From NCBI GenBank assembly GCA_016342685.1, contig JAEINU010000012.1:1-64000 (forward strand): a DNA stretch of 64,000 nucleotides. Reading direction: 5' to 3'. Source of the stretch: Bacteroidales bacterium (lineage in GTDB: Bacteria; Bacteroidota; Bacteroidia; Bacteroidales; UBA12077). The position numbers and the translations under genes were made by a program. The notes beneath the pieces are model-generated. The model ran no database searches. It was not told where the DNA came from and worked only from the letters and a program-made list of their open reading frames with translations. The stretch's first letter is position 1. Each line of letters opens with the position of its first letter. Shown in pieces: positions 45,901 through 62,136 of this stretch.

Positions 45901-46049
45901 CTGAAGAAAACAGATTTGGAGATCCTGAATTTAAGAATCAAACAAATAGAACAAATCAAGCTGTTGCAGCTAATGCTGTAGGTATCGGAGGATTTATGCA
46001 GTCTCCACCTGTAAAAACATACGGATTTAAAATCAATATTGAATTCTAA
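42930..46049 (+). CDS. SusC/RagA-family TonB-dependent outer-membrane transporter
   Basis: The 1039-residue product has a signal peptide (about 1-21, ending FQAAAQM) and a carboxypeptidase-regulatory-like domain (about 24-100, GTVTGVEDGLSIPGVSVVVK). A TonB plug domain (about 110-230; NTQILLRGMRSISKGNDALV, then NAAVLYGAEAGNGAVIVTT) and a beta-barrel to the C-terminus, ending in an aromatic-type KINIEF, follow. It imports a ligand captured by the SusD lipoprotein, driven by TonB-ExbBD from elsewhere in the genome. The operon has no glycosidase, lyase or sulfatase gene, so the substrate cannot be predicted; peptide or other non-glycan ligands are possible. Confidence 0.93.
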   Translation: MKKVTIFLAFLLFVSFQAAAQMQITGTVTGVEDGLSIPGVSVVVKGNSTIGTTTDIDGKYSLTIPASAEILEFSFVGMKKLEIAINGQSVIDVQMEADVLEMEQVIVTAYGIKREKREVAYQTERITGDQLLQASPDRAATALAGKVAGLQINVQDNGVNPNTQILLRGMRSISKGNDALVVIDGSVASAGAFDDLNPNDIESINILKGANAAVLYGAEAGNGAVIVTTKSGKGAEKFTVGVNSSFSMTQVAYMPDFQSEYGTGIDGAYNPVENTNWGPRFDGTIRQIGPAFPADYGLATQMVPYAPVKNNLLDFYETGNKLTNTIYLSGSTDDSKFYASFGDQRAEGIVPNDEYRRNTLRINASKKIGKVEVGLNLSFLTDKTNVVGNTIGDQDRPLYWFVLNQSANIPLSEYKDWDNPLSYGYSDNYYNAYYQNPYWAVGTNRNIDYTNRLVGNFSLSYDITENINFIGRVSANNVWGNGKNWRAYQAYNEDLQPAHSVVSSFVEDTEFKTESYIGDAILTGNFKFFEDFSLKGIIGGTTTSRKTYQNEIRANNLSIPDFYDVSNGTGAPEVMVDELKKRTFGYYGDFTFGYKNYLFLNLSGRYDWTSTLSKDDRSYFYPGVGLSFVATDAFEVLKTGDVLTFAKVTFNNSTVYNDLGIYELNERYFQENGFPFGPNNGFSQGVTAVDANIKKEKLNTNEIGVNLGFLKGRASLDFAWFKTKTTDLITNTTPSNSSGSLRYLTNIGELEGTGIELSLSGTIVKTKDIEWEISFNYFSNETVVNEIYEGLNEISIYTTGQFGIYAVKGETYPQLKANDYARDPQGRIIIDPVSGYPTTKDGLQNLGKTTPDYIMGLTSSLKYKGFTLSGTLDYRTGHVYYEEGSDAMEFTGRSVASVSSNRQDFIIPNSVIETSPGVFIENTNIPISGGNQSYWMDVYNEVKSNYVKDATALKVRELSLSYELPKSLLSKTPLSKATIGFVATNPWTWLPEENRFGDPEFKNQTNRTNQAVAANAVGIGGFMQSPPVKTYGFKINIEF

Positions 46050-46051
46050 AA

Positions 46052-49498: not shown

Positions 49499-50194
49499 TT
49501 ATCCATATTCGCTAATCTTTTTTAACAAATCATAATTTGCAACATTAACCGTTTTTCCTTCCAAGGTAATAATACCATCATCCTTGAATTTTTTAAGCAT
49601 GCGAATTACACTTTCGGTTGACATTCCAGTTAACTCAGCCAACTCTTTTCTTGAAAGATTTAATTCAAAGCTTTTATCTTTAAAAATCCTTTCTGATAAA
49701 CATATCAATATATCTGCCATTCGCCCATACAATTGTTTATGAGTTAAACAAAAAAATCGACCATGGGTTTGTAGGGCATTTTCACATAAAATATTAATTA
49801 TTGAATTGGCAAATTTCACATTTTGTTTCAATATTTTCCTTATTATATTAATATCAATTAAACTTGCTGTTGATTCAATATATGCTGATGATGAATAATG
49901 AAATACATTACTATTTTCCATCACAGAAGTTAATCCTATTAAATTTCCTGAAGGAATAATTTTAAGTATAAGGGAATCATTTACTCCTTCCAAAAAAATC
50001 TTTGCCAATCCTTCTTTTAAAAAAATAACATGTGATGCAAAAGTTCCATGTTTGCAAATCACTTCTCCTTTTTTATATCTAACATCAATGGAATTTTTAT
50101 CAATAAGCTCTTGCTCTTCATCAGTTAACATATCGAAGCAAAAGTCTTTGGCATTACTTACAGTACAGCTATTTAGAGCAGAGAATTTTTCCAT
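49499..50194 (-). CDS. Crp/Fnr-family transcriptional regulator
   Basis: The product has 231 residues from the preferred start MEKFSALNSCTVSNAKDFCF. An ATG 33 bases upstream (50227) lies inside the predicted -7 box and so cannot be in the transcript. The cyclic-nucleotide-type effector domain (about 30-135; RYKKGEVICKHGTFASHVIF) is followed by the Crp-type HTH (about 165-215; LSRKELAELTGMSTESVIRM). The N-terminus carries CTVSNAKDFCF, a Cys pair resembling the start of Bacteroidota Fnr-like regulators; whether it binds an Fe-S cluster is unknown. It is divergent from the sulfur operon and probably controls it. Confidence 0.88.
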   Translation of the reverse strand: MEKFSALNSCTVSNAKDFCFDMLTDEEQELIDKNSIDVRYKKGEVICKHGTFASHVIFLKEGLAKIFLEGVNDSLILKIIPSGNLIGLTSVMENSNVFHYSSSAYIESTASLIDINIIRKILKQNVKFANSIINILCENALQTHGRFFCLTHKQLYGRMADILICLSERIFKDKSFELNLSRKELAELTGMSTESVIRMLKKFKDDGIITLEGKTVNVANYDLLKKISEYG

Positions 50195-50224
50195 ATGACT
50201 TACATTTTTAAATTCAATATGGCA

Positions 50225-50232
50225 CAAATATA
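50225..50232 (-). promoter_or_regulatory. Candidate -7 box for the Crp/Fnr-type gene
   Basis: The minus strand reads TATATTTG, matching TAnnTTTG. The transcript would start near 50218, 24 bases before the ATG at 50194. This decides the start codon of that gene. Confidence 0.5.
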
Positions 50233-50384: not shown

Positions 50385-50615
50385 ATGGAAATAAAAGAAA
50401 CATTAGACTGCAAAGGGCTTTCATGCCCAATGCCAATGATGAAATTGGCTAAAACAATTAAAGGATTAAACTCAGGAGAAGTACTTGAAATGATTGGAAC
50501 TGATCCTGGAACAAAGTCAGATCTCCCAAAATGGTGCGAGAAAACAGGAAATGCCTTAGTTGAAGAAGGTGAAGTTGAAGCAGGTGTTTTCAGATTTTTA
50601 ATCCAGAAAAAATAG
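50385..50615 (+). CDS. tusA: TusA-family sulfur carrier protein (first copy)
   Basis: The 76-residue product has the TusA/SirA fold with the sulfur-carrying Cys14 in the signature LDCKGLSCPMPMMKLAKTI and a second cysteine (Cys9) five residues before it. TusA proteins carry sulfur as a protein persulfide between sulfurtransferases. It is the first gene of the long sulfur operon and sits ten bases before a YeeE/YedE-type transporter, a pairing well known from thiosulfate or sulfur uptake systems. It likely accepts sulfur brought in by that transporter. TusA in tRNA thiolation is an alternative, but no other thiolation gene is nearby. Confidence 0.9.
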   Translation: MEIKETLDCKGLSCPMPMMKLAKTIKGLNSGEVLEMIGTDPGTKSDLPKWCEKTGNALVEEGEVEAGVFRFLIQKK

Positions 50616-50624
50616 GAGGTTAAA

Positions 50625-51839
50625 ATGGCTGATCAAAAAAAAGAGCCAGGTATTCTTCAGGAGCTATTTAATACTTTTTTTGCTAAGCACTGGCCAGTAT
50701 GGGTTGGTGGTGTAACTCTGGGATTATTAAACATTTTACTATTTACAGTAAAGAGTCCTTGGGGAGCAAGTGGTGGAATAAATAATTGGGGCGAAAATAT
50801 TTTTAAACTGATGGGTATTTCTGCGTTTGAGAATGCAGCTCCAACAGGAACAAGCTTATATGGAATGCTTTGCTTGCTAATTATATTAGGTTCGTTTGCA
50901 GGTGCATTGTTTTCCAAAGAATTTGCACTAAGAATTCCCCCAAAAGGAGAACTAGTAAAAGGTTTTATTGGCGGAGCGCTTATGGCTATTGGAGCAACAT
51001 TAGGCTTAGGATGTACAATTGGTTCATTCTTTAGTGGTGTCCCTGCATTATCTGGAGGAGCAATAATCTTTACAATTGGATTATTTGCAGGAACCATAAT
51101 AGCTTTAAAATATTTAATCTGGGAAATGGAAAAATTCCCAAGCTTTAGCTCAGGTAAAAGCTTTACATTTCTTGCTGCATCAGAGAAAAAAGGGCAATGG
51201 CAAATCTGGTTAGGCTGGATTGTTTCAATCGGAACGTTCATTTTAGCTTATAGAGTTGCCGGTACAAATGGTGTTTTAGCGTGGTTTATAATCTCTGGAT
51301 TATTAATGGGACTAATTTGTCAAAGATCTCGATTTTGCATAGTAAAAGCATTTAGAGACCCATTTATGACGGGCGAAAGCGATGGTTCAGTTGGTGTTAT
51401 GGCTGGATTATTAATAGGCCTTATTGGATTTACAGCAATCAAATTCTTCGGAATTGGTGCTGGCGAAACATCAATCCGTGCCAGAGAAATGTCATGGGTT
51501 TTTGGACAATTCTGGTTACGTGGACTTTTGGGTGGTTTTATTTTTGGGTTAGGAATGACTGTTGCCGGTGGTTGCGCTGTAGGTACATTATGGCGAGTTG
51601 GCGAAGGTCAAGTAAAACTATGGATGGCAGCTTTAGGATTTTTATTAATATCTCCTATCTCAAAGCATTACATCGTTCCTTCAATTGTTGAAGCCCTTCC
51701 ATTTACAACAAAATTTAAAAGTTATTTACCCGATTATTTTGGTTATGCCGGTGCAGTTCTAATTGTACTTGCCATAATTCTAATTTGGTATGTATTTGTT
51801 AAATGGAACGAACGTACAGGAAAATTCAGTGCTTTTTAA
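50625..51839 (+). CDS. YeeE/YedE-family sulfur-compound transporter
   Basis: The 404-residue integral membrane protein has about nine to ten helices in two related halves. It keeps the conserved cysteines of the YeeE/YedE (TsuA) family: LGLGCTIGSFFSG near 130, CQRSRFCIVKAFRDP near 230 and VAGGCAVGTLWRVGEG near 310. Family members import thiosulfate or related sulfur species by passing them along cysteines. It follows TusA by ten bases. In this operon it is the predicted inner-membrane entry point for sulfur released by the periplasmic rhodaneses. Selenium species are a less likely cargo. Confidence 0.9.
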   Translation: MADQKKEPGILQELFNTFFAKHWPVWVGGVTLGLLNILLFTVKSPWGASGGINNWGENIFKLMGISAFENAAPTGTSLYGMLCLLIILGSFAGALFSKEFALRIPPKGELVKGFIGGALMAIGATLGLGCTIGSFFSGVPALSGGAIIFTIGLFAGTIIALKYLIWEMEKFPSFSSGKSFTFLAASEKKGQWQIWLGWIVSIGTFILAYRVAGTNGVLAWFIISGLLMGLICQRSRFCIVKAFRDPFMTGESDGSVGVMAGLLIGLIGFTAIKFFGIGAGETSIRAREMSWVFGQFWLRGLLGGFIFGLGMTVAGGCAVGTLWRVGEGQVKLWMAALGFLLISPISKHYIVPSIVEALPFTTKFKSYLPDYFGYAGAVLIVLAIILIWYVFVKWNERTGKFSAF

Positions 51840-51864
51840 TCATGATAAATTATTGAACTGTAAA

Positions 51865-52350
51865 ATGAAAAAAATGAAATTCAATATATCAATTTTAGCA
51901 CTACTTATTATAATTTTCTCTTCGTGCACAGCCATTTATGAAGACGGTAAAGATATTGTAAGTGTTGTTAAATCGGAAATAAATGAAGTATCGGTTGATA
52001 CTTTAAAATCAATGATAGAAAAAGGAGAAGAATTTCTATTATTAGATATACGTCAACCTGCAGACTATGAAACTGGCAACATTCCTGGTTCATTTTCAAT
52101 CCCTCGTGGTGAATTAGAATTCTTAATTCTTGATGAATATTTCTGGGAAGAACAATTCATGTACACCCCTCTTAAAACCGATAAAATTATTGTGTATTGC
52201 ACATCTGGCAATCGTGCAACGCTTGCTACGCAATCACTTATGAAATTAGGTTTCGAAAATGTTTCAAACCTAGAAGGCGGATGGACAGCTTTTGCTGGAG
52301 AAAATCCAGTTGCCGAAATGCAACCTGAATCAGGTGGTTGCGGTGGATGA
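51865..52350 (+). CDS. Rhodanese-domain lipoprotein with C-terminal Cys tail
   Basis: A start at 51865 (MKKMKFNISILALLIIIFSS, then C) gives a 161-residue lipoprotein. The longer frame from 51790 overlaps the transporter and is rejected. The single rhodanese domain (about 40-150) has LLDIRQPADYETGNIPGSFS and the active loop VYCTSGNRATLATQS with the catalytic Cys. The protein ends in SGGCGG, a flexible Gly/Cys tail found again in the lipoprotein at 55275-55778. The tail cysteine could be a second persulfide site. It lies 25 bases after the YeeE gene and should be anchored in the periplasm or at the outer membrane. Confidence 0.85.
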   Translation: MKKMKFNISILALLIIIFSSCTAIYEDGKDIVSVVKSEINEVSVDTLKSMIEKGEEFLLLDIRQPADYETGNIPGSFSIPRGELEFLILDEYFWEEQFMYTPLKTDKIIVYCTSGNRATLATQSLMKLGFENVSNLEGGWTAFAGENPVAEMQPESGGCGG

Positions 52351-52383
52351 TAATTCTTTAATACTAACTAAATAAATACAACT

Positions 52384-53349
52384 ATGAAAAAGTTTTTAAA
52401 ATTTGCATTTTTATTTTTATTGATTCCTGCGTTTGTTTTAACTTCTTGTAAAGATGATGGTGATGATCCAATTCCAGAACGTCAAACAGATACAGAATTT
52501 CAAACATTAGTTACATATTTACAAACTAGCGACCTTGATTTGAATAATATTTTAACTGCATGGAACATTTCTGCAGCAGATTTAAATACAGGTTTAGCAA
52601 ATTACTATGTAATCGATATTAGATCAGCAGAATCTTATAATGCAGGTCACATTAATGGAGCAATCAATTCTACTTTAGCTGGAATCTTAACAGCAGCTGA
52701 TGGTTTAGACGACAAGCCTATCGTTGTTGCTTGTTATAGCGGACAAACTGCAGGTCATGCTGTAGCTGCATTAAGATTAAGTGGTTATGCTGATGCTAAA
52801 GTATTATTATGGGGAATGAGCGGATGGCATACTACATTAGATTCTTGGAGTGGTGCTTGTAACACTATTTCTAGTGCAAACTGGACTTCGTCTCCAGGTT
52901 CAATTGTTGAACATACAACTGAATTTGCAGATCCTGATATTACTGAAACAGGTACTGGAGCTGAAATATTAGCTGCAAGAGTTACTTCATTATTAAACGG
53001 AAGTTTAAGAGGTGTTGCAGGTGCTGATGTATTAGCTGCTCCTGGATCATATTTTATTAATAATTACTGGGCTGCTGAAGATGTTGCTACATACGGAAAC
53101 ATTTCTGGTGCTCACAGAATTAATCCATTAACATTAGCTGGTGGAGAATATAAGAACTTAGATCCTTCTAAAGATATCGTTACATATTGCTGGACTGGTC
53201 AAACATCTTCTGTTATAACTGCTTACTTATATATTTTAGGTTATAACTCTCATAGTTTAAAGAATGGTTCTAACAGTATGATTTATGATAATCTTACTGC
53301 TCATAAATGGAATGCTTCTTCAATCTCTGATTTAACTTTAGTACAATAA
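52384..53349 (+). CDS. Tandem rhodanese-domain lipoprotein
   Basis: The 321-residue product has a lipoprotein signal (IPAFVLTSCKDDGDD; lipid on the Cys near 22). The first rhodanese domain (about 35-160) has YVIDIRSAESYNAGHINGAI and active loop ACYSGQTAGHAVAAL. The second (about 200-320) has active loop YCWTGQTSSVITAYL. Both keep the catalytic Cys, so both may transfer sulfur. CxxGQT loops are typical of exported rhodaneses. It is followed by a strong terminator and then by the porin gene, so its expression may exceed that of the genes after it. Confidence 0.87.
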   Translation: MKKFLKFAFLFLLIPAFVLTSCKDDGDDPIPERQTDTEFQTLVTYLQTSDLDLNNILTAWNISAADLNTGLANYYVIDIRSAESYNAGHINGAINSTLAGILTAADGLDDKPIVVACYSGQTAGHAVAALRLSGYADAKVLLWGMSGWHTTLDSWSGACNTISSANWTSSPGSIVEHTTEFADPDITETGTGAEILAARVTSLLNGSLRGVAGADVLAAPGSYFINNYWAAEDVATYGNISGAHRINPLTLAGGEYKNLDPSKDIVTYCWTGQTSSVITAYLYILGYNSHSLKNGSNSMIYDNLTAHKWNASSISDLTLVQ

Positions 53350-53355
53350 AAATAT

Positions 53356-53389
53356 AAAAGCTTGGGTAGTATACACTACCCAAGCTTTT
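53356..53389 (+). terminator. Terminator inside the sulfur gene cluster
   Basis: A perfect 15-base stem (53356-53370 with 53375-53389, core AGCTTGGGTAGT) with a 4-base loop is followed by AATC, so the T run is short (four T). It may act as a partial terminator or as an mRNA-stabilising hairpin between the rhodanese and porin genes. Confidence 0.7.
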
Positions 53390-53407
53390 AATCAAAAAAT
53401 AGTAAAA

Positions 53408-54445
53408 ATGACATTTAAAAAATCTCTTTCAACAATAGTACTTACCTTATCAGTAGCATTTATGTCAATGAATTTGGCAAATGCACAAGGTTGTATGGAA
53501 GCTTCTTCAGACGAAGGAGTAAGTATAAAAGGATATATTCAGCCTCAATGGGAATATTATCAAACAACAGACGGTAAAGATGCAAACAGCTTCACATTTA
53601 ATCGTGCTAGAATAGCTGCTTTAGGAAACATTCCTTACGATGTAAGTTATTTTGTAATGATGGATCTTTCTAAATTCAAAGGTGGACCTGAGTTAATAGA
53701 TGCATTTGTAACTTATAATAGATTTGATTGGGCTAAAATAACATTTGGTCAATTTAAATCACCATTAAGTTTAGAACAAAACACGGCGTGCCAAGGACTA
53801 CATACAATTTACAGATCAAAAGCGGTAGATGAACTTGCCGGTCCTCAACGCGACATAGGAGCAATGATTTTTGGAGGAAAAGCGGATTCCAAATTCCACT
53901 ACTATTTAGCAGTTATGAACGACTATGCTAGAGGTTTTGAAGATGAAAATAATGGGAAAAGTCTTAAAGGTAGATTAACATATTCTCCTTTAGATTTTCT
54001 TCAGATAGGTGGAAGTTTTGCGTATGGTGAAACCGGTGTTGAATCAGATAACGAAAAAACTCGTTTAGGCGGCGAACTTCAATTAACATTTGGAAATTTC
54101 TTATTCCAAAGTGAATATTTATGGGCAGATGATACCGGAAATTACACAACAGGTGGTGGATGCGATGGAACACCTATTGAATTTCACACAGGTGGTGTAA
54201 CAAGAAATGGATATTATGCTCAAGCAATGTATATGACATCTTGGAATCTTCAACCAGTAGTTAAATTAGAATCATTTGATTCTAATGTAGATATCGATGA
54301 TAACTCTGAAACTATTTTGACATTTGGTGTTAATTACTTTTTAAATGAATGGACAAGAATACAAGCCAATTACAGATATAAAGCAGAACAATTATTAGAA
54401 ATACCTAATGATCAATTTGTATTACAAGTTCAAGTAAAATTTTAA
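53408..54445 (+). CDS. Outer-membrane porin (OprP/OprO-like beta-barrel)
   Basis: The 345-residue product has a signal peptide (about 1-26, ending MNLANAQ) and alternating beta-strands of a 16-stranded-type porin. Phosphate-selective porin style motifs appear: GYIQPQWEYYQTTDG near 42, FTFNRARIAALGNIPYDVSY near 60, WAKITFGQFKSPLSLEQN near 112. The last strand ends in VLQVQVKF, with a C-terminal Phe as needed for BAM insertion. It is flanked by rhodanese genes, so it probably admits anionic sulfur species (thiosulfate, polysulfide, polythionate) or another oxyanion. The specificity is inference. Confidence 0.85.
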   Translation: MTFKKSLSTIVLTLSVAFMSMNLANAQGCMEASSDEGVSIKGYIQPQWEYYQTTDGKDANSFTFNRARIAALGNIPYDVSYFVMMDLSKFKGGPELIDAFVTYNRFDWAKITFGQFKSPLSLEQNTACQGLHTIYRSKAVDELAGPQRDIGAMIFGGKADSKFHYYLAVMNDYARGFEDENNGKSLKGRLTYSPLDFLQIGGSFAYGETGVESDNEKTRLGGELQLTFGNFLFQSEYLWADDTGNYTTGGGCDGTPIEFHTGGVTRNGYYAQAMYMTSWNLQPVVKLESFDSNVDIDDNSETILTFGVNYFLNEWTRIQANYRYKAEQLLEIPNDQFVLQVQVKF

Positions 54446-54457
54446 AACCGACAAATC

Positions 54458-55267
54458 ATGAAAATAAAAAATATACTTTCTAGCTTTCTTTTAGTGGTAA
54501 TATTTGCTAATATTTCATTAGCTCAAGATATTATTTCTGCTGCAGAGGCAAAGAAACTACTTAATAGTAAAACCACTGTTTTAGTTTCAGCAAGAAAAGT
54601 TACAGATTACGCAAAAGTTCACATTAAGAATGCGGTTAATATTAGTGTAACCGATTTAGCGAGCACAACAGAACCAAAGGGAATTATTAAATCCCCTACT
54701 GAATTAGCGACAATACTAGGAGAAAAAGGTATAAATCCTGCTAAAAAAGTTATCATCTACGATAGTGGATCAAACAAAAGTGCTGGAAGATTGTACTGGA
54801 CTCTTAAATATCTTGGTTTTAATGATGTAAAAATTCTTGATGGTCACATGAAAGCATGGAGAACAGCCAGAGGACCAGTAACAGGAGCTGCAACAAAAAC
54901 AGTTGCTACACCTTTCACCCCAAAAGTAAATTCTAAAGTTTTTGCAGATAAAGCTTATGTAAAATCTAAATTAAATTCAGCTGCTATTATTGATGTTCGA
55001 GACGATACTGAATGGGGTGCAGGACATATCCAGAATGCTAAGCATCTTGAGTTCAAAAATGTTTTAACAGATGGTGGCAAATTAAAGTCAAAAGCTGAAT
55101 TGGAAGCATTATTTAATGCAACAGGAATCACAAAAAACAAAGAGGTTATTCTTTATTGTGCAACTAGTGTTCGTGCTGGTGTTGTATTTCTTGCATTATC
55201 ATCAATCCTTGAATATCCAAACGTTAAGGTATATGATGGCGCATACAACGAATGGAAATTAAACTAA
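54458..55267 (+). CDS. Exported thiosulfate/3-mercaptopyruvate sulfurtransferase-like protein
   Basis: The 269-residue product has a cleavable signal peptide (about 1-23, ending NISLAQD) and two rhodanese domains. The first (about 25-140) carries Asp in place of Cys (IIYDSGSNKSAGRLYW), as is normal for the inactive half of this family. The second (about 150-269) has the substrate-binding IIDVRDDTEWGAGHIQNA and active-site loop LYCATSVRAG. It is a soluble periplasmic enzyme, unlike its lipoprotein neighbours. It starts 12 bases after the porin stop and ends seven bases before the next gene. It likely moves sulfane sulfur from thiosulfate or polysulfide to periplasmic acceptors. Confidence 0.88.
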   Translation: MKIKNILSSFLLVVIFANISLAQDIISAAEAKKLLNSKTTVLVSARKVTDYAKVHIKNAVNISVTDLASTTEPKGIIKSPTELATILGEKGINPAKKVIIYDSGSNKSAGRLYWTLKYLGFNDVKILDGHMKAWRTARGPVTGAATKTVATPFTPKVNSKVFADKAYVKSKLNSAAIIDVRDDTEWGAGHIQNAKHLEFKNVLTDGGKLKSKAELEALFNATGITKNKEVILYCATSVRAGVVFLALSSILEYPNVKVYDGAYNEWKLN

Positions 55268-55274
55268 AATAATT

Positions 55275-55778
55275 ATGAAATTCATAAAATTTATTGTTCC
55301 TACGATACTTTCAGTTACACTGCTTTTAAGTTGTGTACAAAGAGATACTACAGTATATGAAAGTACCGATGCGATGGTTACTACGGTAAAAGCAGAAATT
55401 AAAACCATGAGTATGGAAGATTTAAAAACTTTAATTGATAATCATTCCGAAATTCAAATTATTGATTGTCGCGAAGATTATGATTTCATACTTGGTCATA
55501 TTACAGGTTCAATTCATATCCCAAGAGGCTTGCTCGAATTTTCGAGTAAAATATCTAACCGAAGACTCAAAACTTTAGTAATTGGAAATGAAATGGGAAG
55601 CGGAGCATTAGCTGTTCAATCATTAGAGTTATTAAAATACTCAGATTCCTATTTACTAGATTTTTCTTGGTTCGATTGGGAAGAAACTTATCCAGATTTA
55701 GTAGATCAAGGAATGGGAGAATCGGTTTCTGCTGAACCAGCAAAGAAAGAATCATCAGGTGGTGGTTGTGGCGACTAA
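55275..55778 (+). CDS. Degenerate rhodanese-domain lipoprotein with C-terminal Cys tail
   Basis: The 167-residue product has a lipoprotein signal (TILSVTLLLSCVQRD). The rhodanese domain (about 40-145) resembles the protein at 51865 (QIIDCREDYDFILGHITGSI; HIPRGLLEF). The active loop is lost: LVIGNEMGSGALAVQSL has no cysteine where CxxGxR is expected. The protein ends SSGGGCGD, like the SGGCGG tail of its relative. It may have become a sulfur-binding or docking protein that uses the tail Cys or the Cys in IIDCRE instead of a classic active site. It sits seven bases after the sulfurtransferase gene. Confidence 0.8.
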   Translation: MKFIKFIVPTILSVTLLLSCVQRDTTVYESTDAMVTTVKAEIKTMSMEDLKTLIDNHSEIQIIDCREDYDFILGHITGSIHIPRGLLEFSSKISNRRLKTLVIGNEMGSGALAVQSLELLKYSDSYLLDFSWFDWEETYPDLVDQGMGESVSAEPAKKESSGGGCGD

Positions 55779-55803
55779 TAGTTAATCTTAAAAGCAAAAC
55801 GAA

Positions 55804-56217
55804 ATGGCAAAAATGACAGTAGGCTTAAGCACTTCAAGCATTGACAAACTAACAAGCGTTGGAGTAATACTTAGTGGTGCAGCTGCCGATGATATGGAAG
55901 TGGATCTGTTTGTTCTGGTAAATGCTGGTCACGCATTTCTAAAAAACAAAGCGGAGAACATCTCAGCAATGAGTGAGGACATTCAAACATCAGAAGAATT
56001 TAAGGCTTCTCTTGAAAAAGTATCTTCACCATCGTGGTTAGAATTCTTTGAAATGGCTAAAGAACTAACCGAAGTAAAAATTCACATTTGCTCACTTGCC
56101 GGTAAAATTGCTGGTGGAGAAAAAATGGAAGATTTCATCGATATTGTTGATGACATTTGTGGAATTGGTGAATATATTGAATCAATCCAAAATACAGATA
56201 TCAACATATTTATATAA
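55804..56217 (+). CDS. DsrE-family sulfur carrier (first)
   Basis: The 137-residue cytoplasmic protein shows the DsrE fold pattern (TVGLSTSSIDKLTSVGVILS, then AADDMEVDLFVLVNAGHAF). A conserved cysteine lies in VKIHICSLAGKIAGG and a second in DICGIGEYI near the C-terminus. DsrE proteins accept and pass persulfide sulfur to or from TusA. It differs from the next DsrE-type protein by lacking the N-terminal helical extension. It ends 50 bases before a predicted internal promoter region. Partner choice between the two TusA copies cannot be told from sequence. Confidence 0.83.
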   Translation: MAKMTVGLSTSSIDKLTSVGVILSGAAADDMEVDLFVLVNAGHAFLKNKAENISAMSEDIQTSEEFKASLEKVSSPSWLEFFEMAKELTEVKIHICSLAGKIAGGEKMEDFIDIVDDICGIGEYIESIQNTDINIFI

Positions 56218-56266
56218 TTAACATGTTTTATAATATAAAATATATAAACTTATGTATGTAGACATG

Positions 56267-56299
56267 TTTGTGGTATTATGATATAAAGATCTACTTTTG
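56267..56299 (+). promoter_or_regulatory. Internal promoter of the TusA/Qmo-like half of the cluster
   Basis: TTTG at 56267-56270 and TACTTTTG at 56292-56299 are 21 bases apart, fitting the Bacteroidota -33/-7 pattern. The start would be near 56306, 37 bases before the ATG at 56343. Two copies of ACATGTTT (56221 and 56263), 42 bases or about four helical turns apart, lie just upstream and may be regulator sites. Confidence 0.6.
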
Positions 56300-56342
56300 T
56301 GGAATTAATTTTAATATCATTAACCCTTAATATCACTGACAT

Positions 56343-56888
56343 ATGGATTCTGAGTTTAAAAAACAATTTCTTGATTTACAAAACAAGGTTAACAACCTCG
56401 AAAAAGGTACTAAAGATCAAATGAGCATGGTCGTTTTTTCTGGCGATCTCGACAAACTACTTGCTGCATTAATTATGGCTACAGGAGCCACAGCAATGGA
56501 TACTGAGGTAAAATTATTTTTCACTTTTTGGGCAACAGCCGCTTTACGCGACAAGAACAAAAAAGTAAAAGGGAAGAATTTGATTTCTAAATTATTTGGA
56601 GCTATGCTGCCCAAAGGAAGTACAAAAGTAAAATTATCACAAATGAACATGATGGGAATGGGAACATCCATGATGAAAAAATTGATGAAAAAGAATAATG
56701 TTGCTTCATTAGAAGATATGTTTAAAATGGCCGGCGAACTTGGTGTGCAAATTAATATTTGCGAAATGTCCATGGAGCTAATGGGTTTAAAGAAAGAAGA
56801 AATGATCGATTATCCAAACCTAAACATTTGTGGAGTAGCAACATTTTTAGTTGATGCAGAAGAAAGTAAAGTTCAATTATTTATTTAA
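56343..56888 (+). CDS. DsrE/DrsE-like sulfur carrier (second, DsrE2-type)
   Basis: The 181-residue protein starts with a predicted coiled coil (about 4-25) followed by a DsrE/DsrF/DrsH-like domain. The motifs DLDKLLAALIMATGATAMDT and VKLFFTFWATAAL are typical of the DsrE2 group, with NICEMSMELMG and NLNICGVATFLVDA giving two cysteines in the C-terminal half. The segment MNMMGMGTSMMKKLMKKNN is strikingly methionine-rich. DsrE2 proteins accompany TusA and rhodanese in sulfur-oxidising and sulfur-reducing organisms. It is the first gene after the internal promoter and is followed by TusA 12 bases on. It may be membrane-associated. Confidence 0.85.
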   Translation: MDSEFKKQFLDLQNKVNNLEKGTKDQMSMVVFSGDLDKLLAALIMATGATAMDTEVKLFFTFWATAALRDKNKKVKGKNLISKLFGAMLPKGSTKVKLSQMNMMGMGTSMMKKLMKKNNVASLEDMFKMAGELGVQINICEMSMELMGLKKEEMIDYPNLNICGVATFLVDAEESKVQLFI

Positions 56889-56900
56889 AAATAAAATATC

Positions 56901-57152
56901 ATGACAACAGAAGAATTACAAGCAATAAATGTAGACAAATCAGTTGACGCAAGAGGTACTGCATGTCCAGGACCACTTTTAGCTGCTAAAAAAGCAATTG
57001 GTGAAATTACTTCAGGACAAATAATGGAAGTTCTTTCAGCAGATGAAGGTACTAAAAAAGATATTCCAAAGTGGGCTACTAAAAAAGGTCACGAATACCT
57101 AGGTACAGTTGAAGATTCAGGATATTACAAAATTTACATGAAGAAAGGTTAG
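56901..57152 (+). CDS. tusA: TusA-family sulfur carrier protein (second copy)
   Basis: The 83-residue product has the TusA signature VDARGTACPGPLLAAKKAIG with the sulfur-carrying Cys near residue 20, and the downstream GTKKDIPKWATKKGHEYLG. The first TusA (50385) has the same DPGTKSDLPKW-type motif, so both belong to one subfamily linked to dissimilatory sulfur metabolism. It is placed between the DsrE2-type gene and the MvhD/HdrA-type genes (six bases to the next), which suggests that it is the direct sulfur donor or acceptor of the Qmo-like complex. Confidence 0.9.
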   Translation: MTTEELQAINVDKSVDARGTACPGPLLAAKKAIGEITSGQIMEVLSADEGTKKDIPKWATKKGHEYLGTVEDSGYYKIYMKKG

Positions 57153-57157
57153 TATTC

Positions 57158-57559
57158 ATGGAAAAATTAGATAATCCAAAAATTCTGGTTTTTTCAACGG
57201 AGAAAATTTCCGACCCCGCTATAGATATGGCGGGGCTCCTAAAAAAGCACTATCCTGCTACAGTATATACTGTGAACGTCCCTTGTTCCAGTGCCGTAAA
57301 ACCAAAGTGGATTTTACATGCATTCGATAAAGGTTTCGATGGCGTATTTATAGCGGCCGATGGAACAGATTGCTCATACAGTGATACCTGTTCGGAAAAA
57401 ACCTCTGAAATTGTAAAAACCACACACGAAATAATGCGAGAGAAAAACATTGATCCTGCTCGATTAAAAATGGCAGCCATTTGTTCTGTTTGTGCAGAAG
57501 CTTTTGTTAAGCACATGAAATCTTTCCATTCTCATTTATTAGAAGCTAAAGGAAATTAA
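57158..57559 (+). CDS. MvhD/FlpD-like electron-transfer protein
   Basis: The 133-residue product matches the MvhD (hydrogenase iron-sulfur subunit) fold. ILVFSTEKISDPAIDMAGLL, VPCSSAVKPKWILHAFDKGF, DGVFIAADGTDCSYSD and ICSVCAEAFVKHMKSF follow the family order. In canonical MvhD the N-terminal strand ends in CCNWC to bind a [2Fe-2S] cluster; here it reads FSTEKI, so those cysteines are missing. The remaining cysteines (about 43, 71, 76, 107, 110) are mostly kept. In sulfate reducers this domain is fused to QmoB; here it is a separate gene next to an HdrA-like gene. It likely connects the flavoproteins to another electron carrier. Confidence 0.75.
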   Translation: MEKLDNPKILVFSTEKISDPAIDMAGLLKKHYPATVYTVNVPCSSAVKPKWILHAFDKGFDGVFIAADGTDCSYSDTCSEKTSEIVKTTHEIMREKNIDPARLKMAAICSVCAEAFVKHMKSFHSHLLEAKGN

Positions 57560-57575
57560 TTTTAAATAACTCAAT

Positions 57576-58874
57576 ATGTCAAAATCAGAAGAATATGATG
57601 TTCTTGTTATTGGAGGAGGAATTTCTGGTGTTGAAGCATCATTAAATCTAGCAAATCAAGGACATAAAGTTCTTGTTGTTGAGAAAGATTTATCTGTAGG
57701 TGGAAAAATGATTCACTTAAGTAAAGTGTTTCCAACCTTAGACTGTTCTGCTTGTATAACAACCCCAAAAGTTTCCGAGGCAGCAAGACACTCAAATATA
57801 ACAATCTATACTTACAGCCAGGTAAATGATATTGATAAAAAGGCTGAACATGATTTTAGGGCAAGCATAACAAAATTCCCTCGTTACGTTGATGAAGAAT
57901 CTTGCACAGGCTGCCAAGTTTGTGAAGATAAGTGCCCTGTTGTTGTTCAAGATCAATATCAATATGATTTAGTTGGAAGAAAAGCAGCGTATGTTCCTTT
58001 TAGTATTGCCAATCCGAGAATTGCTGCTATCGATATTGAAAACTGTAGTCTTTGTGGTGCTTGCGAAAGAGCGTGTCCTGCAGACTGTATAGATTTCACT
58101 CAAGAAAAACAAGATATTGAAATTAAAGTAAAATCAGTAATTGTAGCTACAGGCTTCAAATTATTTGATCCAACTTTAATACCTAGATATGGTTTTGGTC
58201 TATTTAAAAATGTTGTTACATCCATGCAAATGGAACGCCAACTGGTTCCAACTCGACCATTCAATAATGTTCTAAGACCAAAAGACGGCAAAATGCCCGA
58301 TAATATTGCATACGTTCTTTGCGCTGGTTCTCGCGACGAAACTGTTGGAAATCCAATCTGTTCGCAAGTATGTTGCATGTACTCCATTAAACAAGCTCAG
58401 CTGTTATTAGGTGCATTACCTATGGCCGATGTAACAATTTATTACTTAAATATCAGATCTTTTGGAAAAGGATTCAACGAATTCTATCAGCAAGCAAAAG
58501 ATATGGGAGTAACATTTGTTAAAGGTAAAATTGGTAAAGTTGAAGAATTAGAAGGTGGAGATCTTAAATTAAGATATGAAGATATAGAACAAGGAGTTGT
58601 TAAAGAAGCAAATCATGATATGGTTGTTCTTTCTGTTGGAATATTAGCCAACGATGGAGTTACTTCTTTATTCAAACAAAATTTAGAACTTGATCAGTTC
58701 AACTATGTTAATCAAAAAGATTTATTAGCTAATCCTGCACAAACCAATATTGGTGGAGTTTATGTTGCAGGAACTGCTTCAGGACCAATGGATATTCCTG
58801 ATTCTATTTTATCGGCTGGTGCTGCATCATCAGAAACAGCTGGTTATTTGAGAGGAGGTAATCATGAAAAATAA
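57576..58874 (+). CDS. HdrA/QmoA-like flavin and iron-sulfur protein
   Basis: The 432-residue product has an N-terminal FAD-binding Rossmann motif (VLVIGGGISGVEASLNLANQ) and a LDCSACITTPKV motif (about 48-60). Two [4Fe-4S] ferredoxin-type motifs are CTGCQVCEDKCPVV (about 110-124) and CSLCGACERACPADCIDF (about 150-168). The HdrA hallmark YVLCAGSRDE...CSQVCCMYSIKQAQ lies near 250-275, followed by a C-terminal FAD contact region. Its length and lack of the HdrA N-terminal module match QmoA of the quinone-interacting membrane-bound oxidoreductase. Its last 11 bases overlap the next HdrA-like gene, implying translational coupling and a fixed complex. Confidence 0.85.
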   Translation: MSKSEEYDVLVIGGGISGVEASLNLANQGHKVLVVEKDLSVGGKMIHLSKVFPTLDCSACITTPKVSEAARHSNITIYTYSQVNDIDKKAEHDFRASITKFPRYVDEESCTGCQVCEDKCPVVVQDQYQYDLVGRKAAYVPFSIANPRIAAIDIENCSLCGACERACPADCIDFTQEKQDIEIKVKSVIVATGFKLFDPTLIPRYGFGLFKNVVTSMQMERQLVPTRPFNNVLRPKDGKMPDNIAYVLCAGSRDETVGNPICSQVCCMYSIKQAQLLLGALPMADVTIYYLNIRSFGKGFNEFYQQAKDMGVTFVKGKIGKVEELEGGDLKLRYEDIEQGVVKEANHDMVVLSVGILANDGVTSLFKQNLELDQFNYVNQKDLLANPAQTNIGGVYVAGTASGPMDIPDSILSAGAASSETAGYLRGGNHEK

Positions 58875-60798
58875 AATAGGTGTTTACGTATGTATGTGTG
58901 GATCTAACATTTCAGACTATGTTGATGTTGAAAAAGTAAAAGCAGAAGCCGAGAAAATTGGTGGCGTTTTACTTTCAAAAACAACTATGTTTGCTTGCGC
59001 AGATTCAACTCAGCAAGAAATTGCGAATGACATTAAAGATCAAGAATTAGATGCTATAGTAGTAGCTTCATGTTCTCCTAAATTACACTTGCACACATTT
59101 AGAAATGTTGCCATTCGAGCGGGTCTGAATCCTTACAATTATGTTCAGGTTAACATTCGCGAACAAGGTTCTTGGGCTCATTCCGACAATCCTGCACAAG
59201 CAACTGAAAAAGCTATTAAATTAGTACAGGCTGGTATAGAGAGAGTAAAACATTCGAAAGAATTAAGCACAGTTAAAATTCCTTCTGAAAATTCTGTAGC
59301 AGTTGTTGGTGCTGGAATCGCAGGAATGCGTTCTGCTCTGGAACTTGCAGAAATGGGAACCGAAGTGCATTTAATAGAGCGTGAACATTTTGTTGGCGGT
59401 CGTACTTCACAGTGGAATGTGTTATTTACAACAAATGAAACTGGACAAGAAGTTATTTCACGATTGTACAATCAAATAATTTCTCATCCGAAAATTACCT
59501 TATACACTGGAACTAATATTATTTCGAAAAAAGGAAGTGTTGGAGATTTCAATTTAACTCTTAAGGTTAATCCAAGATATATTAAACCAGAATGTAAACT
59601 GGATAAAAAGAAATTTCAGGAAGCTATTGATTTGTGTCCTATCGAAGTTGACGATAAATTCAATTTTAATATCACAAAAAGAAAAGCTATTTACAAAAAT
59701 TACGATAGCGAATTTCCCGAGATGCCTGCAATTGATTACGAAGCTTGTAACAAATGCGGCGAATGTGCCAAACTTTGCGATGAGATAGATTTAAATCAAC
59801 AACCTGAAGAGAAATTAATTAATGTTGGTTCTGTTTTATTAAGTACTGGTTTTAATCCATACGAACCACCAAAAGGCGAGTTTGGATACGAGGATATTGA
59901 TAATGTTATCACTTTACAACAGTTCAAAAGATTAATTGAACTGAACGGTGGTAAATTAATCTATAACAATAAAGAGATTAAGAATATAGCATATATTTAT
60001 TGTGTTGGAAGCCGACAGGTCGATGGAGAAAATAAATATTGCTCAAGATATTGTTGTACATCGGCAATTCATACTGCAATACTCGTAAAAGAAAAGTATC
60101 CGAATATAAATAATTTCCATTTTAATCGTGGTATAAGAACTTACGGTAAACAAGAAGTGCTTTACAATAAGGCTTCTGAGCAAGGAGATATTTTCTTACA
60201 ATCGTTCGAAGACGCTCCTACTCAAGTAGAAAAAGTGGGCAATGAAACCATTGTTAAAATAAAAGATATTTTAACTGCTAACGAAGAACTTGAGGTAAGC
60301 GCAGATTTAGTTGTGTTGGTAACCGGAATGGTTCCTCGCGAAAATGCAGATCTTGTAAATATTCTGAAAGTTCCTATTGGTCGTGATAAATTCTTTAATG
60401 AAATTCATCCAAAATTACGCCCGGTTGAAACTGTAATTGATGGAGTATTAATTTCAGGTGCATGTCAAGCTCCGCTGAATATTACCGAATCTGTTAAATC
60501 ATCTTTATCAGCAGCATCAAAAGTTAACTCATTGGTTAGTTCTGGCGAAATAGAACTTGAACCAACCATGGCTGTTGTACACAACGACAAATGTACTTGG
60601 TGCGACAAATGCACGAATGCTTGTCCATACGATGCCATCTCTGTTACAAAAGTGAACGACAAAGAAGTAGCCTTGGTAGCAAAATCATTGTGTAAAGGAT
60701 GCGGAATGTGTTTACCAGTTTGTCCGGAAAATGCAATCGATTTAATCGGATATACAGATATAGAAATGGAAAGTATGATAGAAGCTTTAATTGATTAA
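58864..60798 (+). CDS. HdrA/QmoB-like flavin and iron-sulfur protein
   Basis: The 644-residue product is a full-length HdrA-like protein: N-terminal YVCMCGSNISDYVDVEKV module, CSPKLHLHTFRNVAIRAGLN, FAD motif VAVVGAGIAGMRSALELAEM (near 145), CNKCGECAKLCDEID, YIYCVGSRQVDGENKYCSRY (then CCTSAIHTAI), and two C-terminal [4Fe-4S] motifs (CTWCDKCTNACPYDAIS and CKGCGMCLPVCPENAIDL). The usual Cys in the NIREQCSWVH-type motif is Gly here (NIREQGSWAH). With the upstream MvhD-like and QmoA-like proteins it matches a QmoB whose MvhD part is a separate gene. It overlaps the upstream gene by 11 bases. Confidence 0.85.
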   Translation: MKNKIGVYVCMCGSNISDYVDVEKVKAEAEKIGGVLLSKTTMFACADSTQQEIANDIKDQELDAIVVASCSPKLHLHTFRNVAIRAGLNPYNYVQVNIREQGSWAHSDNPAQATEKAIKLVQAGIERVKHSKELSTVKIPSENSVAVVGAGIAGMRSALELAEMGTEVHLIEREHFVGGRTSQWNVLFTTNETGQEVISRLYNQIISHPKITLYTGTNIISKKGSVGDFNLTLKVNPRYIKPECKLDKKKFQEAIDLCPIEVDDKFNFNITKRKAIYKNYDSEFPEMPAIDYEACNKCGECAKLCDEIDLNQQPEEKLINVGSVLLSTGFNPYEPPKGEFGYEDIDNVITLQQFKRLIELNGGKLIYNNKEIKNIAYIYCVGSRQVDGENKYCSRYCCTSAIHTAILVKEKYPNINNFHFNRGIRTYGKQEVLYNKASEQGDIFLQSFEDAPTQVEKVGNETIVKIKDILTANEELEVSADLVVLVTGMVPRENADLVNILKVPIGRDKFFNEIHPKLRPVETVIDGVLISGACQAPLNITESVKSSLSAASKVNSLVSSGEIELEPTMAVVHNDKCTWCDKCTNACPYDAISVTKVNDKEVALVAKSLCKGCGMCLPVCPENAIDLIGYTDIEMESMIEALID

Positions 60799-60811
60799 TA
60801 ATGGAATAATT

Positions 60812-61078
60812 ATGGGAAAAACAATAGACATTATTAAGAAAAAAAGGGAAGTTCCTCAAGAAGTAAAAGATAATATAAAGGCTTTTACAAAAATCAAGAA
60901 ACAGATTTTAAAAACTCTTGAAACGGAACCAAAATCTGTTCCGCAAATTGCAAAGGAAATAGATCTTGCCCAGGATATTGTAACATATCATTTAATGACA
61001 CTGCAGAAATTTGGAAGTGTTGAAGTTGACGATATAGATGATATGGACGAATATTATTTATACAAATTGAAAAAGTAA
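60812..61078 (+). CDS. Small winged-helix DNA-binding protein
   Basis: The product has 88 residues from the chosen ATG (MGKTIDIIKKKREVPQEVKD). The ATG at 60791 overlaps the HdrA-like gene and would add MINNGII. Residues about 30-80 form an ArsR-like winged helix: QILKTLETEPKSVPQIAKEI then IVTYHLMTLQKFGSVEVDDI. It carries no cysteine and so is not a thiol-based sensor. It sits between the HdrA/QmoB-like and QmoC-like genes, a spot where small HTH proteins are also known in other Hdr operons. It may be a local regulator or a structural subunit. Confidence 0.78.
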   Translation: MGKTIDIIKKKREVPQEVKDNIKAFTKIKKQILKTLETEPKSVPQIAKEIDLAQDIVTYHLMTLQKFGSVEVDDIDDMDEYYLYKLKK

Positions 61079-61083
61079 AAGAT

Positions 61084-62136
61084 ATGGCAAAAATAAATCC
61101 TGATTTTGCAAAAGAAATCTTTAAATATGGCAACAACGATTTTAACGCATGTTATAATTGTGGAAATTGTACAGCCGTATGTAGCTTATCAGATAAGGAC
61201 AATTCATTTCCACGAAAAATGGTTCGTTTAAGTGTTCTTGGTTTAGATGATAAAATTACTGAATCACTCGATCCATGGTTATGTTATTACTGTGGAGAAT
61301 GTGCAACTTTATGTCCTCGCGAAGCAAATCCAGGCGAACTTATGATGTCGTTGCGTCGTTGGTTAACAGCGAAATACGACTGGACAGGTTTATCTGGAAT
61401 ACTATACAAATCGTTATTTGCAACGCTGTTTGCATTTATTGCAACAGCAATTGCCGTAATTTGGTTTAGTGCAAAACTCAACTTTAATACCGAAGCAATC
61501 ATGCATTTTGGTCATCAGTTTGAGATGATTTCAATAGCTGCAGTTTTTACATTGATATTATTACCAAATATTGCACGCATGTGGTGGTTTACAATAATTA
61601 AACCCGGTGTAAAAGTTAAGTTTAAAACTTATTTGCAAAGTGCCAAAGAGTTATTCATTCATATGTTTACCCAAAAAAGAACTTTAGGTTGCGACGATAG
61701 TAAAGCTCGTTGGTTTATGCACTTAATTCTTGTTTTTGGTTATTTGGCATTATTATTTACAACTGTAGTTTTAGATTGGTTTGGAACCGAGAATATGTTC
61801 ATTATTGCTTTGGGCTATATCGAAAGCATCTCCATTTTTATAATAACTGCTATTTTTGTTACTGGTCGAATTAAAAAGAACCGAGAATTAAATAAATTCT
61901 CGCAACCATCAGATTGGTTTTTTGTAATCTGGTTATTTTTAATGGGATTTACGGCATTCATAGTTCGTATATTCATCGACTTAGATTTAATCGAAAATAA
62001 TCTTTGGATGTATTTATTCCATTTAATTGTTCTTGTTCAATGGGCATTAATAATTGTACCTTTTGGAAAATGGACTCACTTTTTGTATCGTTCGTTTGCA
62101 ATGTATTTTGAAAAAGTAATACAAGCTAACAAATAA
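61084..62136 (+). CDS. QmoC/HdrC-HdrE-like membrane iron-sulfur cytochrome b subunit
   Basis: The 350-residue product begins with an HdrC-type dicluster domain: CYNCGNCTAVCSLS (about 20-33) and CYYCGECATLCPREANPGEL (about 66-85). Residues 100-345 hold six transmembrane helices (for example LYKSLFATLFAFIATAIAVI, MHLILVFGYLALLFTTVVLD and YLFHLIVLVQWALIIVPFGK). Histidines in MHLILVFGY and FHLIVLVQW...KWTHFLYR are placed to bind heme b, as in the NarI-like half of QmoC and HdrE. It should connect the cytoplasmic flavin/Fe-S subunits to menaquinone. It is the last gene before a perfect terminator. Together with the two HdrA-like proteins it completes a QmoABC-like set. Confidence 0.87.
   Translation: MAKINPDFAKEIFKYGNNDFNACYNCGNCTAVCSLSDKDNSFPRKMVRLSVLGLDDKITESLDPWLCYYCGECATLCPREANPGELMMSLRRWLTAKYDWTGLSGILYKSLFATLFAFIATAIAVIWFSAKLNFNTEAIMHFGHQFEMISIAAVFTLILLPNIARMWWFTIIKPGVKVKFKTYLQSAKELFIHMFTQKRTLGCDDSKARWFMHLILVFGYLALLFTTVVLDWFGTENMFIIALGYIESISIFIITAIFVTGRIKKNRELNKFSQPSDWFFVIWLFLMGFTAFIVRIFIDLDLIENNLWMYLFHLIVLVQWALIIVPFGKWTHFLYRSFAMYFEKVIQANK

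Follow-up and report, generated by a model that had tools for sequence, protein, structure and literature searches.

The window analysed here is a stretch of 64,000 nucleotides from a Bacteroidales bacterium (JAEINU010000012.1), corresponding to contig C15 of a 4.77-Mb genome with an estimated completeness of 100%. Positions 50385-62136 hold an operon of 15 open reading frames (ORFs), all on the plus strand in the ORF list of the window. On balance, this operon probably encodes a quinone-linked oxidoreductase for sulfane sulfur that works without Dsr, is served by an import relay of its own, and most likely reduces persulfide to sulfide. It is composed of two separable modules: an uptake module with the order TusA1-YedE-Rhd1-Rhd2-porin-Rhd3-Rhd4, and an electron-transfer core with the order DsrE-TusA-MvhD-HdrA-HdrA-wHTH-QmoC-like (wHTH, winged helix). 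The first-pass annotation of this DNA had listed 15 co-directional genes with named functions, and all of them are present on a single strand, with Pfam agreeing with the gene names. Pfam recognizes two TusA domains, Sulf_transp, Rhodanese in four proteins, Porin_O_P, two DsrE_2 domains, and FlpD/MvhD. In the 3' part, Pfam and NCBIfam recognize two FAD/Fe-S proteins matching HdrA models, an ArsR-type winged helix, and a membrane protein with 2[4Fe-4S] that matches QmoC below the cut-off. The gene order is not due to chance, because corresponding genes recur in matching order in other genomes. The annotation had also proposed that sulfane sulfur is imported and relayed to a quinone-linked HdrA/QmoC complex without Dsr or HdrB. 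Such a relay, the substrate and direction of which are putative, is supported by the gene content, by cysteines that are conserved, and by conservation of the operon.

The core begins with two DsrE-family sulfur carriers, a probably cytoplasmic one termed DsrEa (55804-56217; PF13686, 28 bits) and one of the DsrE2 type (56343-56888; PF13686, 160 bits; PDB relative 3pnx). The Pfam match of DsrEa is weak; its predicted structure has a DsrE fold (mean pLDDT 82.7) and matches 2qs7, 3pnx, and 3mc3. These are followed by the predicted sulfur carrier TusA2 with a CPGP motif (56901-57152; PF01206, 81 bits) and an MvhD/FlpD-type electron-transfer subunit encoded by a separate gene (57158-57559; PF02662, 101 bits). 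The next gene encodes a short, QmoA-like HdrA-type flavoprotein (57576-58874; HdrA2 model 461 bits, cut-off 1100). It is followed by a second, QmoB-like HdrA-type flavoprotein with a C-terminal 2[4Fe-4S] ferredoxin (58864-60798; Pfam Fer4 and Pyr_redox_2; HdrA2 model 573 bits, under the cut-off), in which Pfam found no MvhD domain. The last two genes encode a small ArsR-like winged-helix protein without cysteines (60791-61078; PF01022, 26.5 bits) and a QmoC-like membrane subunit, which combines an HdrC-type 2[4Fe-4S] part with a membrane domain and a probable quinone site (61084-62136; NF038018, 165 bits, cut-off 300).

A survey of gene neighbourhoods in which HdrA-QmoC genes stand beside TusA/DsrE, as suggested in the first-pass annotation, revealed that the operon is conserved within the order and also outside it. 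Within an order sample of 393 genomes, many of them incomplete metagenome-assembled genomes (MAGs), close orthologues of the first window HdrA occur in at least 68 genomes. These 68 core genomes were compiled by hand from HdrA rows of about 57% identity or more, a procedure that may have passed over short fragments. At 39 loci of the order, the genes follow one another as DsrE-TusA-MvhD-HdrA-HdrA-wHTH-QmoC, with few exceptions. TusA and MvhD each lie upstream of the HdrA gene in all 37 loci with at least 1.5 kb of upstream sequence, while the downstream side carries the QmoC-like gene in 33/33 loci and the second HdrA and the winged helix in 31/33 each. A DsrE relative was present in 21 of 23 loci, and many related loci carry just one of DsrEa and DsrE2. 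The closest named relative is the Bacteroidales MAG SMBSF07 (L115), in which HdrA is 86% identical and the whole arrangement is present, with a second DsrEa-type gene at the DsrE2 position.

Outside this sample, the named loci are the best 80 of at least 587 confirmed stretches, and the core HdrA ORF was read in 76 of these 80, most of which show the gene order of the core. They include the Desulfobacterota Delta proteobacterium NaphS2, Desulfosarcina cetonica, and Desulfamplus magnetovallimortis. Other bacterial record titles among the best 80 are Chloroflexi/Anaerolineae, Planctomycetota, Elusimicrobia, Chthonomonas, and Acidobacteria, and the archaeal titles are Hodarchaeota, Njordarchaeota, Heimdallarchaeota, and Thermoproteota. 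Among the named loci with enough upstream sequence, TusA and MvhD were each found in 63/65, L190 and L194 being the loci without TusA. With enough downstream sequence, the second HdrA and the QmoC-like gene were each found in 52/54 and the winged helix in 42/54; a DsrE relative was detected by BLAST in 25/41. Records taken as non-Bacteroidales carry TusA in 37/39, the QmoC-like gene in 34/36, and the winged helix in 24/36 loci. This set was chosen from record titles, which can mislead, as L132 (Chlorobiota) and L134 (Krumholzibacteriia) fall among Bacteroidales in the tree. The loci are also not all independent, since the named records overlap with the genomes of the order sample (L080/L117 and L100/L132 look like the same contigs), which also bears on the tail count given below. 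A tblastn search found no TusA in eight HdrA or canonical Qmo loci (six with a 660-aa HdrA and two canonical Qmo), one of which, L044, has only 0.6 kb of upstream sequence.

Two side observations belong to these loci. In L080 and L117, the core HdrA gene is broken by one in-frame stop codon (TAG), and the operon is otherwise complete. In two Desulfobacterota loci (L153:15892-16641 and L170:15958-16707), rhodanese-type ORFs with CQC near the C-terminus are found roughly 6 kb downstream from where the core HdrA gene starts.

Residue conservation was counted over rows that share at least 30% identity with the window protein and have a length between 0.75 and 1.4 times its own. In the first HdrA, 14 of 15 cysteines are kept in at least 99% of 112 rows. 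The second HdrA is more variable: 46-49 of its 111 rows have a gap where the window protein has an inner four-cysteine stretch (295-305). In the QmoC-like protein, eight cysteines, together with His213 and His332, are kept in all covering rows (82 rows for the cysteines). The sulfur carriers also keep their cysteines: TusA1 Cys14 is found in 12/12 rows, TusA2 Cys22 in 99% of 104 rows, DsrEa Cys96 in 44/44 rows, and DsrE2 Cys140 in 38/38 rows.

The complex had been called "Qmo-like" in the first-pass annotation. Its layout fits this name, but the core flavoprotein (57576-58874) lies closer to HdrA than to canonical QmoA by sequence comparison. A quick HdrA tree of 93 rows, built without bootstrap, united 84 core HdrA rows in a single group (SH-aLRT 99), separate from three canonical QmoA and six HdrA rows. 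The path from the core clade to the HdrA rows is much shorter than that to canonical QmoA, which hangs on a branch 2.42 long. Bacteroidales core HdrA groups with four archaeal sequences in this tree. The window HdrA reaches up to 341 bits against HdrA of 660-690 aa and up to 235 bits against QmoA-sized proteins of 423-431 aa, although the identities overlap (36-42% to HdrA and 32-37% to QmoA-sized proteins). The nearest solved structures belong to heterodisulfide reductases, with HdrA chains for the first HdrA and HdrC chains only for the QmoC-like protein. Another genome of the window's genus encodes a 914-aa core HdrA protein with an inserted glutamate-synthase-type NAD(P)H domain (GltD; L113:6396-9140), a hint that complexes of this kind can be fed by NAD(P)H. 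A similar build is apparent in eleven frames of 916-933 aa, L113 and L114 (7057-9801) among them and one of them in the window's genus; the domain scan covered L113.

The uptake module starts with the predicted sulfur carrier TusA1, which has a CPMP motif (50385-50615; PF01206, 88 bits), and a YedE/YeeE-family importer (50625-51839; PF04143, 181 bits). Rhd1 is a putative rhodanese lipoprotein with an active-site cysteine and a C-terminal GGCGG tail (51865-52350; PF00581, 74 bits). Its ORF is listed from 51790, and the start is probably 51865 instead, giving a protein of 161 aa as in the closest relative, L115. Rhd2 is a putative lipoprotein with two rhodanese domains (52384-53349; PF00581 in two stretches), followed by an outer-membrane porin of the Porin_O_P family (53408-54445; PF07396, 61 bits). 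Rhd3 is a predicted exported tandem rhodanese resembling mercaptopyruvate sulfurtransferase (54458-55267; PF00581, 133 bits in two stretches), and Rhd4 is a rhodanese-fold lipoprotein with a GGGCGD tail and a probable sulfur carrier (55275-55778; PF00581, 46 bits). Read from the sequence, Rhd1, Rhd2, and Rhd4 have a lipobox-like cysteine and Rhd3 has a plain signal sequence.

The SoxY-like GCG(G) tails of two of these lipoprotein rhodaneses are an addition to the first-pass annotation. Rhd1 ends in SGGCGG and Rhd4 in SGGGCGD. The terminal GCG, in which the cysteine is flanked by glycines, is present in 13/13 Rhd1 rows, one of which reads SGCGG, and in 11/11 Rhd4 rows. The lipobox Cys46, Cys137, and tail Cys184 of Rhd1 are kept in 13/13 rows, one of which (L166:221-730) may be an Rhd4. 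Aligned Rhd4 rows have the GGCG tail in 12/12, and the usual rhodanese catalytic cysteine is missing in 10/12. Of 11 Rhd2 rows, 82% keep Cys117 and all keep Cys269, and Rhd3 keeps Cys234 in 11/11. Among 3963 ORFs of at least 90 aa from 121 loci, a C-terminal GGCG or GGCC followed by no more than three residues occurs in 26, of which 25 are Rhd1 or Rhd4, a few of them from duplicate contigs. In the Rhd4 model (mean pLDDT 80.9), the fold is that of a rhodanese, and confidence is low in the tail at 150-167. Neither Rhd1 nor Rhd4 has a SoxY domain, as Rhodanese is their only Pfam match. The cysteine of the C-terminal GGCGG of SoxY has well-established sulfur-substrate binding (PMC6067878), and SoxYZ is discussed as a sulfur source for YeeE-like SoxT importers (PMC11582611). 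By analogy, cysteine arms on rhodanese lipoproteins encoded beside a YeeE-family importer would fit a carrier job of the SoxYZ type. Among the papers listed in a search of the open-licence PubMed Central (PMC) literature, none appeared to concern rhodanese lipoproteins with SoxY-like GGCGG tails.

The importer itself aligns with the Spirochaeta thermophila YeeE (TsuA) in the PDB in two pieces, with the halves swapped. Cys238, Cys317, and Cys130 of the window YedE fall on YeeE cysteines and are invariant in the 13-14 covering rows. The aligned YeeE cysteines are taken to be C22, C91, and C293 because of the aligned positions and the alanine variants in the listed chains. These three are described as important conserved cysteines of S. 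thermophila YeeE (PMC11073785), and the corresponding three are described as essential in SoxT1B (PMC11582611). The window YedE misses the equivalog cut-offs of the NCBIfam TsuA models (94 bits with a cut-off of 400, and 89 bits with a cut-off of 645), and its best NCBIfam match is the selenium YedE/FdhT model (136 bits, cut-off 350).

A complete uptake module lies directly 5' of the core in L079, L080, L087, L094, and L115, and modules cut by contig ends precede the core in L099, L122, L090, and L083. In L076, the module stands before the core without Rhd2 and the porin, and in L093, L098, and L166 it lies near the core in the other orientation. The porin is found between Rhd2 and Rhd3 in eight other modules (L079, L080, L087, L094, L099, L115, L122, and L166). 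In the Hodarchaeota-titled L142, the core is followed by TusA1-YedE, with a TusA 63% identical to TusA1. The uptake module, whose separability from the core the first-pass annotation had not noted, is rarer than the core, as close matches of the window YedE (E 1e-60 or better) occur in 20 of the 393 genomes. Uptake YedE and core occur together in 15 genomes versus 3.5 expected (one-sided Fisher p 7e-9, relatedness ignored), and the five YedE genomes without the core are 66 to 92% complete.

These data can be arranged into a candidate pathway. Thiosulfate or polysulfide would enter through the porin, and the exported rhodaneses would take the sulfane sulfur and load the flexible cysteine tails of Rhd1 and Rhd4. 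These two lipoproteins would do the job of SoxYZ and bring the sulfur to the inner-membrane importer YedE, from which TusA1 would receive it at the cytoplasmic side, as YeeD does for YeeE. The DsrE proteins would then hand the sulfur to TusA2 as a protein persulfide. The two HdrA-type proteins, MvhD, and the QmoC-like subunit may form a complex through which electrons pass between this persulfide and the quinone pool. The persulfide would most likely be reduced to sulfide, serving as an electron sink that requires neither Dsr nor sHdr and does not depend on Apr. Reduction is preferred because no sulfite-forming part (DsrAB or HdrB) accompanies the complex.

The first-pass annotation had listed AprAB, DsrAB, Sat, HdrB, and a lipoate-binding protein as absent. 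This holds for the window and, as far as DsrAB and Sat are concerned, for the whole genome. The sulfite-reductase domain PF01077, shared by DsrAB and assimilatory enzymes, had no match in the genome, with 11/14 control genomes positive, and ATP sulfurylase (Sat, PF01747) likewise had none, with 5/14 control genomes positive. An HdrB-type CCG domain is absent from the operon; its single match in the genome is a 266-aa protein that adjoins EtfA- and EtfB-like ORFs (names read from sequence). No LbpA was found among the operon ORFs in the Pfam results, LbpA having been looked for in the operon and not genome-wide. The claim fails for AprAB, which is encoded on contig C23 (445-453 kb; L036:1989-9639) in the order aprB, small ORF, aprA, qmoA, qmoB, qmoC. 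The scores exceed the curated cut-offs (AprA 875/642 bits, AprB 202/136, QmoC 391/300), and the genome thus has AprAB with its own canonical QmoABC. Small ORFs that resemble four-helix-bundle proteins, as read from sequence, lie inside such apr-qmo operons (L036:2462-2833 and L228:14348-14752). Three molybdopterin-domain places in the genome were viewed, from ORF beginnings only, as possible polysulfide or thiosulfate reductases. One (C2:44743-45963; L241:8095-10137) encodes a 680-aa molybdopterin oxidoreductase adjoining a ferredoxin-like ORF, and the other two adjoin NuoE- and NuoF-like ORFs. SoxY was over the cut-off in 0/20 genomes, a weak result since no control genome was positive; a weak SoxY match on C23 (23.9 bits) was dropped, as its 125-aa protein has no GGCGG tail.

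Several points weigh against persulfide reduction as the role of the operon. An even draw over the whole phylum found a core-type HdrA (at least 50% identity) in only 3/395 genomes, the window's own included; the other two have the same TusA-MvhD-HdrA-HdrA-wHTH-QmoC order. A DsrE relative was detected by BLAST in just 10/26 non-Bacteroidales loci. In addition, 53 of the 68 core genomes have no close YedE, which indicates that outside sulfur arriving via this importer is not the general substrate of the core. No known persulfide-reducing site was found in any subunit. Menaquinol is a weak donor for sulfane sulfur, and its use for reduction is uphill by textbook potentials, so that proton-motive force or a second low-potential donor would be needed. 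Finally, AprAB-QmoABC in the same genome leaves room for an oxidative or disproportionating pathway.

The same relay could run oxidatively, passing electrons to quinone from TusA/DsrE-bound sulfane sulfur or from sulfide, which would make persulfide. This direction is thermodynamically easier, yet it is considered unlikely here, because the operon has no HdrB, the sole CCG match of the genome lies elsewhere, and DsrAB has no match. Known arrangements speak for it: in an archaeon that oxidises sulfur, TusA-DsrE genes adjoin those of an Hdr-like complex (PMC4175335), sHdr works as an oxidising system (PMC6067878), and cable bacteria have a YedE-TusA-DsrEFH type II set that has been interpreted as oxidative (PMC13293266). 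Dsr-free disproportionation of thiosulfate or sulfur, in which the window complex would lead to sulfide and the C23 AprAB-QmoABC would oxidise the sulfite half, the two being joined via menaquinone, is a more doubtful possibility still. Both quinone complexes are present in one genome, and the order sample points the same way. Core and AprA occur together in 9/393 genomes versus 4.2 expected (p 0.012), and uptake YedE and AprA in 4 versus 1.2 expected (p 0.027; both Fisher, relatedness ignored). However, 15 of the 24 genomes with AprA over the cut-off lack the core, and 59 of the 68 core genomes have no AprA over the cut-off; the core is therefore no obligate partner of Apr. Sat was matched in 0/25 genomes searched (the 24 AprA-positive ones and one of the window's genus), although PF01507 proteins of the CysD/CysH family occur in 25/25 of them. 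In four other genomes of the order (L228, L229, L230, and L237), a CysH-sized PF01507 ORF lies at most about 3 kb from aprBA, which suggests a role in reducing adenosine phosphosulfate (APS) to sulfite. The window complex as the Apr partner itself, a pairing that would have undercut the first-pass annotation, was rejected, since AprAB has an adjacent qmoABC and most core genomes lack AprA.

An assimilatory or repair role, in which thiosulfate would be imported as a sulfur source and sulfide freed for cysteine or Fe-S synthesis, is improbable. YeeE and YeeD serve thiosulfate uptake for sulfur assimilation (PMC11073785), and a genome without a PF01077 sulfite reductase match would suit such a need. 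Nevertheless, a membrane QmoC-type subunit, two HdrA flavoproteins, and four rhodaneses exceed what uptake requires, and the importer is missing from the same 53/68 core genomes. The first-pass annotation had also offered selenium oxyanions as an alternative, considered here as the reduction of selenium or tellurium oxyanions, as in the Ext gene sets of Geobacter. Rhd3 scores 71 bits with the ExtH model, and YedE matches the selenium YedE/FdhT model, but both scores are far under their cut-offs (200 for ExtH), YedE also scores on the thiosulfate TsuA models, likewise under cut-off, and TusA, DsrE, and the Cys-tailed carriers point to sulfur. With so little support, a selenium role was rejected on these family-model scores and is hardly credible.

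Parts of this system are in print, and the first-pass annotation went too far in calling it a previously undescribed type. HdrA-like "type II" QmoABC has been described in organisms with or without Dsr/Apr, with its role left open (PMC10504309), and the window complex probably belongs to it, judging by sequence. The two share HdrA-like QmoA and QmoB together with QmoC; in the window, closeness to HdrA was found for the QmoA-like protein only. The available text of that paper makes no mention of a TusA-DsrE-MvhD-wHTH operon or of an exported module. Ammonifex degensii and Vulcanisaeta moutnovskia, the reference organisms of type II, do not occur among the 80 named loci. YedE-TusA-DsrE (YTD) gene clusters are likewise published (PMC12998232, PMC13293266), and one of these two papers, as far as its available text goes, confines the complete YTD to Desulfobacterota and Nitrospirota. 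The count reported for type II dsrEFH is 985 genomes from 20 phyla, which may include relatives of the window set, and archaeal copies are reported to occur with qmoAB or dsrMK (PMC13293266). The window shares with YTD the yedE-tusA adjacency (50385-51839) and dsrE-type genes (55804-56888). It differs in having two DsrE-family ORFs by Pfam in place of dsrE, dsrF, and dsrH, a following HdrA-QmoC-type complex, and a porin with Cys-tailed rhodaneses.

Canonical QmoABC-AprAB shares the layout of two flavoproteins and a QmoC-type membrane subunit. In the window, however, no AprAB adjoins, the QmoC score stays at 165 bits against 300, and MvhD is a separate gene, whereas it forms the C-terminal part of QmoB in the canonical C23 copy. 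The sHdr-LbpA system of sulfur oxidation also has TusA and DsrE carriers beside HdrA-type proteins, but the window operon has a QmoC-type subunit and no CCG-domain HdrB. The sHdr system was rejected for this reason, as HdrB1 and HdrB2 are missing from the operon and the sole CCG match is elsewhere. Sox-SoxT import (PMC11582611) shares a carrier with a C-terminal GGCGG cysteine, a YeeE-family importer, and TusA as the likely acceptor, whereas the window carriers are rhodanese-fold lipoproteins. HdrL of Desulfobacterium autotrophicum is a fusion of a glutamate-synthase-type NAD(P)H part to HdrA like that of L113 (PMC2702500), and the window HdrA is unfused. The Dsr pathway is set apart by DsrAB, whose NIR_SIR domain has no match in the genome. 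Surveys of the sulfur cycle in a sulfidic spring and in Black Sea isolates mention rhodaneses (PMC9040765, PMC11129491), and the latter reports a heterodisulfide reductase system in Bacteroidota and others; the gene set as a whole was not found in the available text of these two. Among the papers listed in searches of the open-licence PMC literature, none was seen to describe this gene set. Within the literature searched, what appears to be new is the fixed operon context with TusA, MvhD, and wHTH, the breadth of its occurrence, and the Cys tails of the rhodaneses, while the single parts are known.

A divergent gene of the Crp/Fnr family on the minus strand (49499-50227; Pfam HTH_Crp_2 and cNMP_binding over the cut-off) precedes the operon and probably encodes its regulator. 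A Crp/Fnr gene is directed away from the core in 30/41 loci of the order, some copies being only 30-39% identical, and among the named loci it was seen only in those of the Bacteroidota type. Elsewhere, the window encodes a 1765-aa subtilase with a Por_Secre_tail sorting domain (21410-26707) and ORFs that resemble a SusC/SusD pair (42930-47548), SusC by its size and SusD by its beginning.

Taken together, it can be hypothesized, tentatively and with more doubt than confidence, that TusA-MvhD-HdrA-HdrA-wHTH-QmoC is a widespread persulfide-quinone respiratory enzyme, a third route beside Dsr and sHdr that extends from Asgard archaea to Bacteroidales. The window copy would be fed by rhodanese lipoproteins with independently gained SoxY-like arms, and together with AprAB-QmoABC it could allow Dsr-free disproportionation. 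If persulfide reduction is the role of the operon, uncultured Dsr-less anaerobes, which are easily missed in sulfur-cycle counts, would have a quinone-linked route for sulfane sulfur. Type II Qmo complexes would gain a substrate in the TusA/DsrE persulfide, and the rhodanese lipoproteins would show how rhodaneses can fill the carrier role of SoxYZ. The operon would also provide a gene marker for sulfur use in Bacteroidales.

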